Assembly: GCA_903828515.1 (NCBI GenBank)
Contig: CAIKMD010000002.1
Coordinates: 868,001-932,000, forward strand
Direction: 5' to 3'
Origin: an uncultured Rhodospirillales bacterium
GTDB lineage: Bacteria; Pseudomonadota; Alphaproteobacteria; ATCC43930; CGMCC-115725
Length of the DNA stretch: 64,000 bases
Shown: positions 56,540 to 64,000 of the stretch, piece after piece
How positions within the stretch are numbered: the first letter of the stretch is position 1
Layout: each line of letters starts with the position of its first letter
Notes under the pieces: generated by a model
Databases searched by the model: none
What the model saw: only the letters and a program-made list of their open reading frames with translations
What the model was told of the DNA's origin: nothing
Program-made: the position numbers and the translations under genes

Positions 56540-57529
56540 TCAATTGACGACGATTCGCGCTTCCGGCGAATTGTTCACGACCTGCGACAGTAGCGCATCG
56601 GCCTGATCGACCGACCCGATCGGGCCCAGCCGCACGCGATACATGATCGTGCCGTTGACCTTGGTATCGGTCACGGTCACCGAGCCCAGCTTGTCCAACA
56701 ACGTCTTCAGCCGGACCGCGCGATCGATGCTGGAGAAGCTGCCGGCCTGAACATAGATATTGGTCGGCCCGACCGGCACGACCTTCACGGTTTCCGGCAA
56801 CGGCGGCGCCTCGACGAGCGCGACCTGTTCGGGCGCCGGCGGCGGCGCGGGCATCGTCGGGGTCGGCGGCGGCGCGACGGCGACCACGCCCGGCGGCGGC
56901 GGCAAGGCCTCAGCGGCGACTTTCTCGACCGGCACGGCCGGCGGCGGCGCCTCGGCGACATTTTGCTGCTGCGACTGATCGCCCGGCGCCTTCGGGGCGA
57001 CCGCGGCCAGCGCCGGCTCGTTGCCGCGCCGTCCGGCGAGGCTCGCCACCTGGATCGATGCCGGGACATCGATCTGCACGCGGACCTTCGCCGTGCCCTT
57101 CCCCTCATAGCCGAGGAGCTGCGCGGCGCGGCGCGACATGTCGATGATGCGGCCGCGCGCATAAGGACCGCGGTCGTTGACCCGCACCTCGATCGAACGG
57201 CCGTTCTCGAGGTTGGTCACGCGCACGACGGTCGGCATCGGCAAGGTACGATGCGCGGCGGTCATCGCATTGAGATCGAAGGTCTCGCCGTTGGCGGTGT
57301 ATTTGCCGTGGAACTGTTCGCCGTACCACGAGGCGATGCCGGTCTCGTCGTAACTCCAATCCTCGTTCGGGTAATACCACGTCCCGTCGATCTGATAGGG
57401 ATTGCCGACCTTGTAGCCGCCATGGCTGTTCGCGGCCGATGCCGACGGCTTGGGGGCGGTCGAGGAGCACGCGGCCAAAGTCAGGGCAAGCGCGCCGACG
57501 CCGAATACCGACCAGAACCGACGCGCCAT
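56540..57529 (-). CDS. rlpA: RlpA septal ring lytic transglycosylase with SPOR domain
   Basis: 329 residues. Lipobox LAAC at Cys21; double-psi beta-barrel (about 62-150) with GIASWYGEQFHGKYTANGE, NPHRT-like AHRTLP and NDRGPYARGRIIDMS, which includes the catalytic Asp; a long Pro/Ala/Val linker (PPPPGVVAVAPPPTP); C-terminal SPOR domain (YVQAGSFSSIDRA, YRVRLGPIG) that binds denuded glycan at septa. ATG at 57529 with AAGGA directly upstream. Confidence 0.93.
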   Translation of the reverse strand: MARRFWSVFGVGALALTLAACSSTAPKPSASAANSHGGYKVGNPYQIDGTWYYPNEDWSYDETGIASWYGEQFHGKYTANGETFDLNAMTAAHRTLPMPTVVRVTNLENGRSIEVRVNDRGPYARGRIIDMSRRAAQLLGYEGKGTAKVRVQIDVPASIQVASLAGRRGNEPALAAVAPKAPGDQSQQQNVAEAPPPAVPVEKVAAEALPPPPGVVAVAPPPTPTMPAPPPAPEQVALVEAPPLPETVKVVPVGPTNIYVQAGSFSSIDRAVRLKTLLDKLGSVTVTDTKVNGTIMYRVRLGPIGSVDQADALLSQVVNNSPEARIVVN

Positions 57530-57549
57530 ATCCTTCGTACCTGTCCGTT

Positions 57550-58518
57550 TCAATTGATGCTGTCGGCCAGCGTGCCGACCGCCGTCGCAAAATAACTAGA
57601 GTTATTCCAGCGCAAAATCACGCCGTAATTATCGTAGACGGCATAGCTCGGGCCGGTGGCGCCGCCCGGCTGCATGATCGCCGCGCGCTGCGTCCCGTCG
57701 CCCAACGTGCTGCCATCCAGGCGGCGAACGCCGAGATTCGTCCATTCGCCGACGCTGCGTTTCTGCGGCATACCGATCAAATTGGAATCGAAACCGGCCG
57801 GCAGAGTCACCGTCTCGCCCCAACCCTGATCGGCCTGCCAACCGACCTTCGCCAGGTAATTCGCGATCGAGGCGAACACGTCCTGCGGCTTCGACCAGAT
57901 ATCGGGCGACCCGGTTCCGTCATAACTCACCGCATAAGCGAGGAAGCTCGACGGCATGAACTGGCTCTGACCCATTGCGCCGGCCCACGAGCCGATCATC
58001 GTCTTGGGATCCACCTTGTCGTTCTGGACGATCTTCAGCGCGTTGATGAGTTCCTTGCGGAAGAACGCGGCGCGCCGTCCGTCGAACGCCAGCGTCGCCA
58101 AGGAGGCGACCACCGGATAGGTGCCGATGGTGCGTCCGAAATCGGTCTCGATCCCCCACAGCGCCACGATGAAACGCGGCGGCACGCCATAGCGCTGCCC
58201 CACTGCATCGAGCAGCGCCTTGTTATCGGCGTAACGCTGACGCGCGTTGTCGCGCCGGCCCTGGGAGACAACGCGATCCATGTATTGCTGGAAGGTGAGC
58301 GTGCTCTCGGGCTGGGTATGATCCAACTCGATGATGCGCGGGATGGGTTTGACGCCGGCAAACGCGCTGTCGAGCGTGTTCGCGGTAATCCCTTGCCCGA
58401 TCGCATCCTGGCGAAAACCTTGCAGCCACGCGTTGAAGTCGCCCGGCGCCTGAGCCAGGGCGGGCCCCGCCAGGAGGAGCAGGACGAGCGGCAGAAACCG
58501 AAACCAGAGACGATGCAT
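57550..58518 (-). CDS. Lytic murein transglycosylase, MltB family
   Basis: 322 residues. Signal peptide ending ALAQ, no lipobox, so soluble in the periplasm. Catalytic Glu124 in LWGIETDFGR, followed by MGQSQFMPSSFLAYA and a C-terminal small domain (YDNYGVILRWNNSSYFATAVG). It cleaves peptidoglycan glycan with anhydro ends. 20 bases ahead of rlpA; together with dacC the three handle cell-wall remodelling. Confidence 0.93.
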   Translation of the reverse strand: MHRLWFRFLPLVLLLLAGPALAQAPGDFNAWLQGFRQDAIGQGITANTLDSAFAGVKPIPRIIELDHTQPESTLTFQQYMDRVVSQGRRDNARQRYADNKALLDAVGQRYGVPPRFIVALWGIETDFGRTIGTYPVVASLATLAFDGRRAAFFRKELINALKIVQNDKVDPKTMIGSWAGAMGQSQFMPSSFLAYAVSYDGTGSPDIWSKPQDVFASIANYLAKVGWQADQGWGETVTLPAGFDSNLIGMPQKRSVGEWTNLGVRRLDGSTLGDGTQRAAIMQPGGATGPSYAVYDNYGVILRWNNSSYFATAVGTLADSIN

Positions 58519-58554
58519 CGCTCATGCTTACAAAAGAGCGAGGGGGTACGCCAC

Positions 58555-59400
58555 TTAATCCGCCGTAATCACCAGACGACTCGCATTCACCCGCAATTCG
58601 TCGGGGAGCGCGGACGACCGGCGCGCCTGGAGGTCGAAATGGACCCCGGCCTGGTAATATCGCGCGACTCGCTGTCCCCGCTGCAATCGCATCTCATGGA
58701 GGATCTTCACCGAGGAGCGCCCGACCTCGAGCATGCCGCTATTGGTCGACACGCCTTCGCCCAGCGCGGGCGCCGGCCCAAACAGCTCGAGTCGAGTCTC
58801 GAAGGTGGCGAAGCCGCGATTCTGCTCGCGCATATAGGTGCTGGTCATCCCCGCCGCGTTCATGTTGACAAGGTTGGCGGTCGAGAAGCGGTTGACGAAA
58901 CCGAACAGCGAGAGCCGCCCGTCATCGCCCGCCTCGTTGGTCTTCACCCGGGCAAGCCCGGTCGCGACCGGCCCCGATTTCTCGGGCAGCTTCACCGGAT
59001 CGAACGGCATTTCCGTCCACGCGGCTTTCGACGCGTCGAGCGAAGCGCGCAATTCCGCCCACGCCTCTCCGTCCGGCGCATCGAGCGCGACGATCTCTTC
59101 GGCGACGGTGGTGGCAGGGCCACCCATACCGTTGGTCGCGACATGGCCGAGGGTGAGCGTCGCCGCGTCGATCCGGATGATCCCGCTCGCAATCACGATC
59201 GGATCACCGGCGCGCAGCTCGGTCACATAGCGCGTCGCGATCGCCCGCGTGGTCCAGCGCGCGTTCGGCGCCAGACGCTGCAGCAGCTCATAGCCGGCGT
59301 CGGCGAAACGCTCGATGTAATAGGCGATATTGAGATGGCCGAAGGCGTCGCATTCCTGAATCAGAACGCCGCCGCGATAGCACTCGACGAGATCGGTCAT
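58555..59400 (-). CDS. Double hot-dog acyl-CoA thioesterase family protein
   Basis: 281 residues. First hot-dog repeat: RGGVLIQECDAFGHLNIAYYIERFADAG with the DAFGHLN active-site motif typical of 4HBT thioesterases; second: NRFSTANLVNMNAAGMTSTYMREQNRGFATFE. Substrate unknown. It overlaps the class II aldolase stop by ATGA, placing it last in the bicupin operon. Confidence 0.8.
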   Translation of the reverse strand: MTDLVECYRGGVLIQECDAFGHLNIAYYIERFADAGYELLQRLAPNARWTTRAIATRYVTELRAGDPIVIASGIIRIDAATLTLGHVATNGMGGPATTVAEEIVALDAPDGEAWAELRASLDASKAAWTEMPFDPVKLPEKSGPVATGLARVKTNEAGDDGRLSLFGFVNRFSTANLVNMNAAGMTSTYMREQNRGFATFETRLELFGPAPALGEGVSTNSGMLEVGRSSVKILHEMRLQRGQRVARYYQAGVHFDLQARRSSALPDELRVNASRLVITAD

Positions 59401-60158
59401 CGCCGCTTGCTCATCGCCTGTTTTTTCCACATCGCCCAGGTCCGCAGATTGGTGTTCTCGACGCTCTCGACGCAGAGCGCGACTTCGTCGTCCGACAGAT
59501 AGGTGATCTCACCGCCGAGACGCAGCGCGTCCATCTGCAGCTTGGCGTTCATCGCCGCATAGATCGCGCGATAGACCGCGAGGGTCAGCGTCGGCGCGAC
59601 GATGGTCGCGCCGTGACCGCGCATCAGCACCATCGGCTTGTCGGCGAGCACGCCGGCGAGCGCCTGGCCCATATGTGCCGAGCGGATCAGCATCTGGCCT
59701 TCGTTGGAAAATCGCCTGATCTCGAACACCGGCACGCCCAAGCCGACCATCGCGCTCATGTGATACATCGGCCGCAGCGGCGCACCGGTGGCGCCGAACG
59801 GAATGAGCGGCGGCGCGTGGGAATGGATCACCGCCATCACGTCGGGCCGCGCCTTATAGATTTCGCCGTGGATGAAACGTTCGCTGTAATGCCGCTCGCC
59901 GCGATCGGGCACCGCCTCGCTGTCGAGGTTGAATTCGCGGATGTCGGCGCGCGTGACGATGCCGGGCGCGACATAGGACGACATCACGAACAATTCGGGG
60001 TTCCGGTCGTTGCGCGCGCTGACATGCCCGAACCCGTCCAGGATGTCGTGATCGAACAAGATCAGGTTCGCGGCAACCACATCGTCGATCAGTTCGCGCG
60101 ACGCGGTCAGGAGGCGGGAGGCGGGCTTCTTGGGTTTGGTCTTGGGTTTTGCTGGCAT
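59397..60158 (-). CDS. Class II aldolase/adducin family protein
   Basis: 253 residues. Zinc site His in AVIHSHAPP and later MRGHGATIV, catalytic acid in ERFIHGEIYKA. The N-terminus is lysine/proline-rich (PAKPKTKPKKPA). Such enzymes split or decarboxylate phospho- or hydroxy-acids; no kinase is adjacent, so a phosphorylated sugar is not implied. The start at 60158 is preferred to a TTG at 60197. Confidence 0.85.
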   Translation of the reverse strand: MPAKPKTKPKKPASRLLTASRELIDDVVAANLILFDHDILDGFGHVSARNDRNPELFVMSSYVAPGIVTRADIREFNLDSEAVPDRGERHYSERFIHGEIYKARPDVMAVIHSHAPPLIPFGATGAPLRPMYHMSAMVGLGVPVFEIRRFSNEGQMLIRSAHMGQALAGVLADKPMVLMRGHGATIVAPTLTLAVYRAIYAAMNAKLQMDALRLGGEITYLSDDEVALCVESVENTNLRTWAMWKKQAMSKRR

Positions 60159-60227
60159 GATGCGTTCGAGATTAGCGGCGGCGCTCCGCGGTGCCAACCG
60201 CGGAGGTCGGTCCAGCCGATCTTTGAC

Positions 60228-61370
60228 TTAAAGCACCTTGCGCTTCGTCCAGTCGACCAGCACGTCGGCCAGTTCGTTGACGAGGCGCGGGCCTTCCTTT
60301 TGCTTGAACGGGAAGTGGCGCGAGCCCTTGAGCGTGTAGTCCTCGCAGCGCGCGCCGCAGACCTGGCTGTAGATCGCCGTCTCGGTCGGGAACGTGCCCT
60401 CGTCGGCCGAGAAGCGAACATTGATCACCGGCACGGTGGTCTCGACGATCCGTTTCGGCCCGTCCGCGACCGTGAGATCGCTCCACTGGCTGAGATAAGA
60501 GGTCAGCGTGGTGAAGCGGCCATACATCGCGGCGGAATAATTGACCGATTGGGCGTTGCCGAAAATCGTGCCGGTCGGGCGGTCGTTGGGATCGATCGTG
60601 CCGTCGAGCGTCGCCGGGTTGGCATAGGTGCGATAGATCACGAAGCCCAGATCGCGGGTCAGTTGCGGCCCCTTGGAATCCCGCAATTCGCGCAGCTTGG
60701 CCACCGCCCAGTCGGTGATCCGCTGGTGCCGCGCCTTCTGCGCCTCGCGATATCGCGCCAGCCACGCCCGGTCATAGGGCGCCTTTCGGTCGGGATGGAA
60801 CATGTTGAGTTCGGGATCGGCACCGAACGGATCCAGTTCGTTCAGGATCGACGGATCGAGCGTCACGCGGAATTTCTGCGCGCGGCCAAGATGCGCGCCG
60901 ACCAGCGCGATCGCATCGGCCTTGGGCAGGTCGTCCGGAATGATGTCGTAGGGGTCGCCGTCGGGCGTCGACTTGATCGTCAGGTGTTCGGCCTGCGACT
61001 GATAAAGCGACATGACCGGGCCACCCGCCGAATTGGCGATCAGCACGATCTTCTTATAACCCTCTTCGCGCAGGAAGCGGACGCCGGCGCCGACGTCTTG
61101 AATCACGCGCTCCATCATCAGCGTGCTGTCGTTGTTCACCGCGCGCGTGTTAAGGGCGAGGATCGCGCTCTTGCGCTCGTTCAACGGCTCGACGAGGTAG
61201 TGATGCCAGAAGCTCACCGCCGGATGCAGCACCAGATAAGCGACGTCCTTCGAACAACCCTCATCCGAAAACCGGCCATAGACCTTCGGGTTGATCATCT
61301 CCTGCACGCCCTGGCCGATCTCCGGGATGTTGCTCGCGCGCATGCCGATCGTGACAAGTCTTCCTACCAT
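60228..61370 (-). CDS. Alpha/beta hydrolase
   Basis: 380 residues, no signal peptide. Nucleophile elbow IANSAGGPV with the likely catalytic Ser, a late acid in the PVINVRFSADEG region and His in KGSRHFPFKQ. The lid between them is long and helical. Not close to a named esterase. GGAG lies 10 bases before the ATG. Third gene of the operon. Confidence 0.78.
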   Translation of the reverse strand: MVGRLVTIGMRASNIPEIGQGVQEMINPKVYGRFSDEGCSKDVAYLVLHPAVSFWHHYLVEPLNERKSAILALNTRAVNNDSTLMMERVIQDVGAGVRFLREEGYKKIVLIANSAGGPVMSLYQSQAEHLTIKSTPDGDPYDIIPDDLPKADAIALVGAHLGRAQKFRVTLDPSILNELDPFGADPELNMFHPDRKAPYDRAWLARYREAQKARHQRITDWAVAKLRELRDSKGPQLTRDLGFVIYRTYANPATLDGTIDPNDRPTGTIFGNAQSVNYSAAMYGRFTTLTSYLSQWSDLTVADGPKRIVETTVPVINVRFSADEGTFPTETAIYSQVCGARCEDYTLKGSRHFPFKQKEGPRLVNELADVLVDWTKRKVL

Positions 61371-61406
61371 ACCGACAACTCCATCTTCGTAAGGAACGCG
61401 CCGCGA

Positions 61407-62438
61407 TCAGCCGCCGAGGAAATCGTTGGTCATGACTTCGGCCGGGGTCGGCTTGCGGGTCATTTCCGTGTCATAGGTCTTGAGCAGATCGGTCATCTTC
61501 ACCCAATCCTCGGCGTTCGACCAACCGACCGGCTTTCCCTTGGTGGCCGGGGAAAGCATCCGGTCGGGAATCATCTCATAAGCATATTCGCTGATGATGT
61601 CGGCCGGCGGCGTTTCGTCGAACTGCTTGTGAACAATCGCCGACGCCTCGGGCACCGCTTTCTTCGGGTCCTTCTCCATGTAGTCCCACGCGCGTTGCGT
61701 CGCCTTGACGAAGTGCTTGATCAGGTCGGGATCCTTGGTGAGAAGGTCGGTGCGCACGATGATGCCGCTGCCCAGGACCGGCAGATAATCCGAGAACACG
61801 AATTGATGGACGATCTCGCCCTTTTGCTTGAACAGCCATTCGCCGGTCGAACCGAGCGTGAAATTGCCCGAGGCATCGACCTGCTTGGCGCCAAAGATTC
61901 CGTAATAGCTGCGGAAGTCCCAGTTCACGAGCTGAACCTTGTTGACGTCGATACCGTTTGCCTTGGCGAAACTCGGCCACAGCAGGAACGCGACCGATCC
62001 CGGCACGATCCCCATTTTGCGGCCCTCGAGGTCCTTCGGCGTCTTGATGCCGGTGGATTCGAAATAGGCCATCGAAAGACTGTCCTTCTGGCCGAACAAG
62101 GCGACCATGCGCAGCGGCAACTCGCCCTTGCCGGCCGCCTGAACCAATGACGACGCGGCGACATTACCGAATTCGGCCTGGCCGCCGGTCACGAGCTGCA
62201 TCGCCTGGGTCGAGCCGCTGCTGTTCTTGATAGCGACGTCGAGACCTTCCTCGGCATACCAGCCGCGCTCCTTGGCGATCCAGAAGCCGAAATGCTGCGG
62301 CTGGAAGCCGGTCCATTCGAGCACCAGCGTCACCGGCTTGAGCGGCGCCTTTTGTTGCGCCAGCGCCGCGCCGGAAATTCCTACCCACGCCATCGAAGCC
62401 GCGAGGCCGAGCCGCGTCAGTGCGCCAAGTTTGCTCAT
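61407..62438 (-). CDS. ABC transporter substrate-binding protein, NMT1/ThiY-like
   Basis: 343 residues, signal peptide ending GAALAQ. TLVLEWTGFQPQHFGFWIAKERGWYAEEGLDV, GQAEFGNVAASSLVQA, DLEGRKMGIVPGSVAFLLW and DPDLIKHFVKATQRAWDYM are diagnostic. The LEWTGFQPQH start resembles pyrimidine/aromatic binders of this family, but the ligand is unknown. Overlaps the bicupin gene by ATGA, and the divergent ABC ATPase gene likely serves it. Confidence 0.87.
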   Translation of the reverse strand: MSKLGALTRLGLAASMAWVGISGAALAQQKAPLKPVTLVLEWTGFQPQHFGFWIAKERGWYAEEGLDVAIKNSSGSTQAMQLVTGGQAEFGNVAASSLVQAAGKGELPLRMVALFGQKDSLSMAYFESTGIKTPKDLEGRKMGIVPGSVAFLLWPSFAKANGIDVNKVQLVNWDFRSYYGIFGAKQVDASGNFTLGSTGEWLFKQKGEIVHQFVFSDYLPVLGSGIIVRTDLLTKDPDLIKHFVKATQRAWDYMEKDPKKAVPEASAIVHKQFDETPPADIISEYAYEMIPDRMLSPATKGKPVGWSNAEDWVKMTDLLKTYDTEMTRKPTPAEVMTNDFLGG

Positions 62439-63427
62439 CGGATGATCCCATCTCGCAGTTTGACGCCGCCCTTGGTTTCGAACAGCAGCGTGGCCGGCGT
62501 GGTCTCGCGCGTGCCGAATGTATGTTCGATGCCGTAGGGCATGCAGTAGAGCGTGCCCGCCGGTGCGTCGATGTAGCCGAGTTCGGTCATCTGATCGGCA
62601 TCGCCCGCATGGACGAAATGAATCTCGTTGCGGACATTGTTGCGGTGATAGAAGGGCGGGCCTTCGCCCGCGCCCTGCCGGCTGATGTCGAGGTCCAGCA
62701 CGTCGTTGGTGAAGAGGCGCAGCGGACGGTGCGTGCCCGGAATGTCGTTGGGGATGTCGGCCATGTCGATCGCATAGGCGAGTTCGTGGGGACCCACGAC
62801 TTCCTTGATGCGCAGGGGATCGTAGCTGCGCTCGACCCGCGCCGACCAGTCGTGACCGCAGATGCGTTCTTCCCAGGAACCGGGCGTCGTCGTTTCGGGC
62901 GGCAGCGGAAATTGCGGCATGGTGGTCTTGAGATCGACCGTCTTCCAATGTTCGCTCGGCCGCAATTCGACTTCGCTTTCGAGGATGAAGTCGAACAGCT
63001 CGCCGCCCTCGGGCACGACGCGATAGCGGATGCCGCGCGCGAGATGGATGAAGCGGCCCGGCATCGCATCGATCACGCCGAGTTCGGTGAGGAAGCGTCC
63101 CTTGCCGCGATGAATGAAATGCAGTTCCTCATGCGCGGTCGAGCGCCATGTATAAGGCATCGGTGCGGCGCGCTTGCTGAGCTTGAAACGCATGCGGTCG
63201 AGATCGGCAACGATCAGCGGCTCGGCCGCCGGGTCGAGCGCATCAGGCGTCGCGACCTTGTCGAGCGCGGCCTGCCAGAATGGAATATTGCCCGAGAAGG
63301 ATTCCGCGCCGAAGAAGCGCTTGTCCTTCACGTCCATCGCGATGCGGTCGCCGCAATCGATCTTCTCGAGCATCTCGCCCGCTTTGATCTCGTGCCCGCG
63401 CGTCAGTATCGTCCGGGAAACTGCCAT
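62435..63427 (-). CDS. Bicupin, homogentisate 1,2-dioxygenase-like
   Basis: 330 residues. Two cupin domains: the first around HEELHFIHRGKGRFLTELGV, the second around NEIHFVHAGDADQMTELGYIDAP and PYGIEHTFG, which keeps the His/Glu set for iron better than the first. Length and layout recall the homogentisate dioxygenase superfamily, which opens aromatic rings, but it is shorter than HmgA (about 430-450), so another substrate is likely. GGAGG before the ATG at 63427. First gene of the - strand operon. Confidence 0.7.
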   Translation of the reverse strand: MAVSRTILTRGHEIKAGEMLEKIDCGDRIAMDVKDKRFFGAESFSGNIPFWQAALDKVATPDALDPAAEPLIVADLDRMRFKLSKRAAPMPYTWRSTAHEELHFIHRGKGRFLTELGVIDAMPGRFIHLARGIRYRVVPEGGELFDFILESEVELRPSEHWKTVDLKTTMPQFPLPPETTTPGSWEERICGHDWSARVERSYDPLRIKEVVGPHELAYAIDMADIPNDIPGTHRPLRLFTNDVLDLDISRQGAGEGPPFYHRNNVRNEIHFVHAGDADQMTELGYIDAPAGTLYCMPYGIEHTFGTRETTPATLLFETKGGVKLRDGIIR

Positions 63428-63655
63428 CCTGACCTCCAGTGTCGACCGGTTTTCAGTCTTCGATGAATGTCGGCCTGTGCCGACCACCCGCAGGGATAGA
63501 GTGACGCCTGACCGGGTCTGTCTTCAACGATTAGCCCTCGCGTTGTCGCATATTTCGTGTTGCAGTAGAAGGGGTTTTAACTCAAGCTGCACCGCGTCTT
63601 AGCGATATCGTCGTTCGCCGTTGTCCCGCTCTCGATCGTGCAAGGCCGGTCCGCC

Positions 63656-64000
63656 GTGGCAGAACAAACTTCGGCGCAGGAACCCCCGTTTTCGGCGTCC
63701 CGACCCTTCATCGAAGCCCGCGGCGTGCGGATGAGTTTCGGCAGCACGCAGGCGCTCGACAAGATCGACCTGACGATCCGCGAACACGAATTTTTCACCA
63801 TCGTCGGACCGAGCGGCTGCGGCAAGAGCACTTTGCTGCTTTTGGCGGCAGGACTCCTGCAACCGACCGAGGGCGTCATCGCGATCGACGGCCGGCCCAT
63901 TCACGCCGCCTATACCAATGCCGGCATCGCGTTTCAGCACCATAACCTGCTCGAATGGCGCTCGATCCTCGGCAACGTCCTGCTGCCGCTCGAAATCCGC
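63656..64000 (+). CDS. ABC transporter ATP-binding protein, cut by window edge
   Basis: 115 residues seen from a GTG at 63656; the frame is also open a little upstream (another GTG at 63638). SFGSTQALDKIDLTIREHEFF, Walker A VGPSGCGKSTLL and the Q-loop FQHHNLLEW are present; the signature and Walker B are beyond the edge. SsuB/TauB type. Divergent from the bicupin operon across a 228-base region that must hold both promoters. Confidence 0.88.
   Translation, partial: MAEQTSAQEPPFSASRPFIEARGVRMSFGSTQALDKIDLTIREHEFFTIVGPSGCGKSTLLLLAAGLLQPTEGVIAIDGRPIHAAYTNAGIAFQHHNLLEWRSILGNVLLPLEIR

Follow-up and report, generated by a model that had tools for sequence, protein, structure and literature searches.

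A bicupin-hydrolase cassette with its own predicted importer, probably distinct from the aldolase-fold and thioesterase-like genes beside it, in an uncultured Rhodospirillales bacterium

Introduction

The DNA considered here (the window) is a stretch of 64,000 nucleotides from an uncultured Rhodospirillales bacterium (assembly GCA_903828515.1, contig CAIKMD010000002.1, positions 868,001 to 932,000). At its right end five genes lie on the minus strand, encoding a bicupin (CUP), a periplasmic binding protein (SBP), an alpha/beta hydrolase (ABH), a class II aldolase/adducin-fold protein (ALDO) and a double hot-dog thioesterase-like protein (THIO), and they face an ATP-binding cassette (ABC) transporter ATPase gene on the plus strand. 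An earlier sequence-only reading had described this arrangement, which the coordinates bear out (Table 1), and had taken the five genes for one operon encoding import, ring opening or oxidation, C-C hydrolysis, aldol cleavage and thioester release. Comparison with related genomes makes it fairly probable that the run instead consists of three strata, namely THIO, ALDO and a cassette of ABH-SBP-CUP with a divergent ATPase-permease pair, and that the cassette is a functional unit for import, ring opening and hydrolysis. ALDO and THIO would be older genes unrelated to the cassette, most likely with roles in other processes. This corrects a pathway otherwise read from adjacency: two of its five steps probably do not belong to it.

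The working unit is most likely importer, bicupin and hydrolase, whose substrate and reactions we infer. SBP, with the ABC ATPase and the permease, would import an aromatic-like acid. CUP, going by its superfamily and the ligand positions in its sequence, would then open a dihydroxylated ring, its C-terminal cupin employing Fe(II) and O2, and ABH would hydrolyse the resulting lactone or acyl ring-fission product by means of a Ser-Asp-His triad, the triad being visible in alignment and the reaction being our proposal.

Gene order in related genomes

CUP is rare. Strict searches of 398 genomes of the phylum (E<=1e-8) and 385 of the class (E<=1e-10) each recover no copy other than that of the window. 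Within the family, 2 of 39 genomes have a full-length relative, both belonging to one genus, and a partial match (positions 55-164) is seen in a further genome (G015). A pattern scan of named genome contigs, covering close relatives only, gave one locus, CAIJOA010000011.1, from a metagenome-assembled genome of an uncultured Rhodospirillales bacterium. We take it as the sister genome of the same genus, called G001 here (the window genome is G000, and the stretch to the right of the window is L002). G001 is the only other genome found with orthologues of all five genes.

In G001, ABH-SBP-CUP and the divergent ATPase-permease pair are kept as one block (identities to the window: ABH 78%, SBP 73%, CUP 73%, ATPase 73%, permease 78%). 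The flanks of this block differ from those in the window, one side resembling metH by eye. ALDO (82-84%) and THIO (70-71%) are on another contig, in the order HolB-Tmk-x-RlpA-SLT-THIO-ALDO-CNT, where SLT is a lytic transglycosylase and CNT a nucleoside transporter. The window genome also has CNT (81% identical to that of G001), about 20 kb to the right of ALDO, with the cassette and 13 further genes in between. Since ALDO adjoins CNT in G001, the block that separates them in the window genome is not there in G001, and the adjacency of ABH and ALDO is likewise not present. ALDO is thus beside THIO in both genomes of the genus, and the cassette is beside ALDO in the window genome only. The sequence-only reading had suggested looking for the five-gene neighbourhood elsewhere; as far as this can be tested, the order is not kept: of the two genomes with the full set, one has the genes side by side. 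The reading as a single operon is therefore not upheld by the one genome able to test it.

The position of THIO has a longer history. Matches to it (E<=1e-20) occur in 23 of 39 family genomes, and loci were read in six of the seven best outside the genus (G018, G009, G007, G023, G021 and G026; G028 is not among them). THIO is next to SLT in three and one gene off in the other three, and RlpA follows SLT in all six. None of the six has ALDO, ABH, SBP or CUP at the locus (tblastn, E<=1e-3, 5.8-14 kb per locus). These loci indicate that THIO is an old neighbour of SLT-RlpA. In the window, too, SLT adjoins THIO on the left by Pfam scan, and the genes beyond it are those that we take to be RlpA, carboxypeptidase, Tmk and HolB. 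As an observation in its own right, the RlpA-SLT-THIO neighbourhood (56540-59400 in the window), recurring in six outgroup genomes, ties a hot-dog thioesterase-like protein to murein genes. The first stratum would accordingly be THIO, a neighbour of SLT-RlpA at the level of the family; the second would be ALDO, next to THIO in the genus and with a promoter-like motif of its own; the third would be the cassette, which lies between ALDO and CNT in the window genome and elsewhere in G001.

The gap between ABH and ALDO (69 bp) also bears on the question. The motif TTGGCA-N17-TAATCT lies 10 bp before the ALDO start in the window and 6 bp before it in G001. Counting both strands, the 64-kb window contains a single exact copy, and a 20-kb stretch of G001 likewise contains one. 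A scan with the sigma-70 consensus found no promoter in the region, and the motif does not pass it; we call it promoter-like solely for its being shared between the two genomes and rare. A terminator between the two genes was considered and dropped: a hairpin there lacks significance (z -1.2, equalled by 20 of 200 shuffles) and has no T run, and no terminator-like site is found on the minus strand of the gap.

That the five genes nevertheless make up one functional operon, for import, ring opening, hydrolysis, C-C cleavage or decarboxylation and thioester release, with their adjacency recently selected, is unlikely. The genes do share one strand with short gaps, the two ATGA overlaps described earlier are real (CUP stop/SBP start and ALDO/THIO), the gap just described has no terminator-like site, and all five are also in G001. 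They are split there, however, six outgroup loci have THIO by SLT-RlpA but no cassette, and both genomes have the promoter-like motif before ALDO.

Several points weigh against the division into strata. The cassette is found in two genomes only, so that "conserved unit" amounts to one comparison, and transcription may read through from ABH into ALDO. Either of the two genomes could be the one rearranged at ALDO, since ALDO is missing from the outgroup loci; moreover, the contigs of G021 and G026 end 0.6 and 2.3 kb past THIO on the side where ALDO would be. The ABH/ALDO junction may be a misassembly. A foreign origin of the cassette was sought in its composition and no difference was seen, the G+C content at third codon positions of its genes being like that of their neighbours, which gives no sign of such an origin.

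ALDO and THIO

ALDO has the class II aldolase/adducin fold (PF00596, 89.3 bits against 22.2), as the sequence-only reading had it, but its nearest relatives point more towards a decarboxylase than an aldolase. Its best match in the PDB is 2z7b (Mlr6791, E 3e-43), the next being chains called aldolases at about 1e-8. Mlr6791 is presumably the 3-hydroxy-2-methylpyridine-4,5-dicarboxylate decarboxylase of vitamin B6 breakdown. The best NCBIfam model is also a decarboxylase, PhtC 3,4-dihydroxyphthalate decarboxylase (NF053537), at 82.1 bits, below its cut-off of 200. By sequence, then, ALDO resembles decarboxylases more than aldolases. It reaches no equivalog cut-off, and it is not with the cassette in G001. 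The window genome has 16 matches to ALDO, itself included; paralogues thus abound. THIO (4HBT_2) shows a weak likeness to the C-terminal part of a carnitine dehydrogenase model (30 bits, cut-off 592).

The relation to Mlr6791 would suit a route for an N-heterocycle. A ring like that of hydroxypyridine would be opened by CUP or a partner, ABH would then act on an amide or formyl group by cleaving it, and ALDO, as in the breakdown of vitamin B6, would remove a carboxyl group from a pyridine dicarboxylate. Some relatives of ABH are also near cysteine hydrolase or maleate isomerase/racemase genes. In the Rhodococcus oxybenzonivorans and Sphingobium AntQ-1 loci, however, annotation shows no such genes up to 8 kb from ABH, and ALDO is apart from the cassette in G001. 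We know of no pyridine ring opening by a bicupin of the homogentisate dioxygenase (HGD) type, and consider this route quite improbable.

The importer

SBP belongs to the NMT1/THI5-like binding proteins (PF09084, 139.9 bits against a cut-off of 20.5) and has a signal peptide seen by eye. The sequence-only reading had advised looking for permeases to the right of the window, and there is one, directly after the ATPase. ATPase and permease match ABC_tran and BPD_transp_1, lie beside SBP and stay with it in G001, as expected of an NMT1/THI5-like ABC import system. SBP stays below the curated cut-offs of the SsuA family (74.3 against 163.5 bits), the taurine binding protein (35 against 304.25) and SaoX (38.9 against 300). 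The ABC system, CUP and ABH are together in G001, which supports the import, ring-opening and hydrolysis steps of the route proposed earlier; its aldolase and thioesterase steps are not supported. The sequence stretch shared by the two genomes between CUP and the ATPase is possibly regulatory.

More binding proteins of this kind are found to the right. L002:2249-7383 (G000:C2 about 933249-938383) has two pairs of NMT1_3 and NMT1 binding proteins with a luciferase-like monooxygenase gene between them, the NMT1_3 proteins having no evident signal peptide, and a third NMT1_3 gene is at L002:11522-12559.

The bicupin

In Pfam, CUP matches generic cupin models only, one just over and one under the cut-off, and a single-sequence phmmer search finds no relevant PDB chain. 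An alignment containing two HmgA rows would make the PDB search circular; the profile used was therefore free of HmgA, with five rows (CUP, its orthologue in G001 and three further bicupins known from annotation or from prediction in this analysis). This profile matches the HGD 3zds at 1.6e-9 over profile positions 84-275. In the C-terminal cupin, all 10 aligned bicupins, two HmgA included, share H261, E268 and H302 without variation; we take the HGD ligands to be two His and one Glu. In the N-terminal cupin, on our reading of the alignment, W94 and Y135 stand at the corresponding His positions, so that this site is likely lost. Sequence comparison thus makes CUP a rare and divergent bicupin of the HGD superfamily with the C-terminal 2-His-1-Glu positions kept, and the earlier assignment to the HGD type holds at the level of alignment.

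Some comparisons count the other way. The 3zds match does not reach H302. The E268 column depends on gap placement, Glu being shifted by one in HmgA, and is not invariant in a 7-row alignment with HmgA. When CUP and two HmgA are compared profile to profile, the match is weak and covers 45 N-terminal columns (probability 50), and an AlphaFold model of CUP from a two-row alignment has a pLDDT of 29.

The superfamily relation and the ligand positions would also suit a second dioxygenase for homogentisate or another 2,5-dihydroxyphenyl acid, with ABH handling a side product. The sequence-only reading had argued from the shortness of CUP, about 100 residues below HmgA, that its substrate is probably not homogentisate. 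That length argument is weak, because the proteins annotated as HGD include a Cupriavidus one of 358 amino acids and others of 391 and 394 from Streptomyces and Rhodococcus, although annotation is not proof. What does stand is that CUP is not the housekeeping HmgA, which lies elsewhere in both genomes and to which CUP is 17-18% identical. PF04209, the C-terminal HgmA model, has a single match in G000, at HmgA on contig 3, and none at CUP. Nor are fumarylacetoacetase or maleylacetoacetate isomerase families found among the 17 L002 proteins scanned. A second enzyme of this specificity is accordingly improbable.

More distant bicupins (26-28% identical to CUP) are found on plasmids. The 358-residue Cupriavidus protein, from plasmid pBB2 of C. 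necator N-1 (L048:1-14825), is annotated as homogentisate dioxygenase, is 27% identical to CUP and shares its stretch with genes for a fumarylacetoacetate hydrolase family protein and an FAD monooxygenase.

The hydrolase and its family

ABH matches no Pfam family at E<=0.01, and for one relative there is none at E<=0.001. It is a serine alpha/beta hydrolase by its Ser-Asp-His order, S114-D323-H352 being invariant in 14 of 14 aligned sequences. The ABH profile weakly matches monoacylglycerol lipase-like chains in its C-terminal part (best 1.9e-6). An AlphaFold model from a two-row alignment (pLDDT 35) lends the assignment no help.

Members of the family are present in 13 of 398 phylum genomes, counting that of the window (E<=1e-8), and in 50 plasmid records. 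The neighbours of ABH were examined at 29 loci (tblastn, E<=1e-6), comprising the window, G001, 9 of 12 other phylum genomes and 18 of the 50 plasmid records; the counts that follow are not independent, queries coming partly from the same loci and some plasmid pairs being near-identical. A bicupin lies within 2.2 kb of ABH at five loci, three of them in Rhodococcus, and a VOC protein within 4 kb at 14, so that one or the other is nearby at 19 loci and neither at the remaining 10, a share that weighs against the proposed reading of the cassette. An FAD monooxygenase is within 5 kb at 10 loci, one match being weak. By coordinates, a bicupin is directly beside ABH in at least 6 of the 50 plasmid records, all six from Rhodococcus. 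Seen from the bicupin, among the best 60 of 165 and 60 of 103 plasmid records, most have no ABH beside it.

ABH thus belongs to a family with no match of its own in the Pfam scan, often beside ring-opening or flavin oxygenases and carried on plasmids and chromosomes alike. It is conceivable, though doubtful, that it defines a little-described hydrolase family acting second, as a common partner, after ring-opening oxygenases of unrelated kinds (an HGD-type bicupin, a VOC-fold protein or a luciferase-like Baeyer-Villiger monooxygenase) and hydrolysing a lactone or acyl ring-fission product each time. The window cassette would then be its bicupin form, equipped with an importer and directed at a new ring-fission substrate. 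On the reading preferred here, the locus is a catabolic island of a fairly common sort that includes a single little-known pair of enzymes.

Features of the locus

The contig that carries the window, 1,016,212 bases long and part of a 4.83-Mb genome, continues past the window's end; the GC of the window is 0.61-0.65. To the right of the cassette, L002:7675-18743 is an island with flavin monooxygenases (two acyl-CoA-dehydrogenase-like, one FAD_binding_3), an amidohydrolase, an MFS transporter and the nucleoside transporter; G001 has no such island beside its cassette.

Table 1. Coordinates of the genes and sites discussed (window positions unless marked L002)
Feature	Position	Strand	Basis or remark
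CUP, bicupin of 330 amino acids, a divergent member of the HGD superfamily	62435-63427	-	sequence comparison
SBP, NMT1/THI5-like periplasmic binding protein	61407-62438	-	PF09084
ABH, alpha/beta hydrolase, 380 amino acids	60228-61370	-	triad by alignment
ALDO, class II aldolase/adducin fold	59397-60158	-	PF00596; judged a separate module
THIO, double hot-dog thioesterase-like protein	58555-59400	-	4HBT_2; judged outside the cassette
ABC transporter ATPase, divergent	63638-64000, on to about 64465 beyond the window	+	ABC_tran
Permease after the ATPase, outside the window	L002:1462-2247 = about 64462-65247		BPD_transp_1
Divergent intergenic region, CUP/ATPase	63428-63637		stretch around CCCCTTC...AAATATGCGAC common to G001
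Promoter-like TTGGCA-N17-TAATCT upstream of ALDO	60169-60197	-	same motif and spacing before ALDO in G001

Comparison with known systems

No paper on a bicupin-SBP-hydrolase cassette was found in the open-licence PMC literature, as judged from titles and the starts of abstracts. Like the HGD superfamily bicupins (3zds), CUP has two cupin stretches, a C-terminal HRN...NE...H pattern and, on our reading, an N-terminal site without His ligands. It differs from HmgA in its length (330 amino acids), its low identity, the missing PF04209 match and its neighbours.

A comparable arrangement is in Rhodococcus opacus, R. oxybenzonivorans and R. sp. JS3073, where a bicupin is directly upstream of ABH and a luciferase-like monooxygenase gene is within 7 kb. 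The likeness has its limits: the Rhodococcus bicupins are 394-410 amino acids long and 15-16% identical to CUP, pairwise BLAST of one of them pairs the wrong halves, and the Rhodococcus ABC genes differ in type from those of the cassette. Linkage to a related transporter was looked for in these loci (L059, L061, L062) and rejected, an ATPase match of 26-27% being found and no permease or SBP match. For strain JS3073, PMC12442393 and PMC11173547 point to work on 4-nitroanisole and not on the bicupin-ABH locus.

In Sphingobium sp. AntQ-1, plasmid pANTQ-1 carries an ABH homologue (39% over 345 amino acids) beside a luciferase-like monooxygenase. For AntQ-1, growth on 9,10-anthraquinone is reported to raise the expression of two adjoining genes, sphantq_4473/4474, with fold changes of 4.05 and 3.49, and Baeyer-Villiger oxidation by a type II monooxygenase followed by lactone hydrolysis is proposed; the hydrolase activity is drawn there from expression and metabolites, and an alpha/beta hydrolase_6 domain is reported in the ABH homologue (PMC9836352). 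Going by plasmid, order and annotation, the pANTQ-1 locus is probably this pair, although the forms of the tags differ. The partner is a proposed type II Baeyer-Villiger monooxygenase in AntQ-1 and a bicupin in the cassette; the window genome's own luciferase-like gene is 7 kb off, and in G001 it is not near the cassette. What the two systems appear to have in common is an ABH homologue that would act as a lactone hydrolase after an oxygenase.

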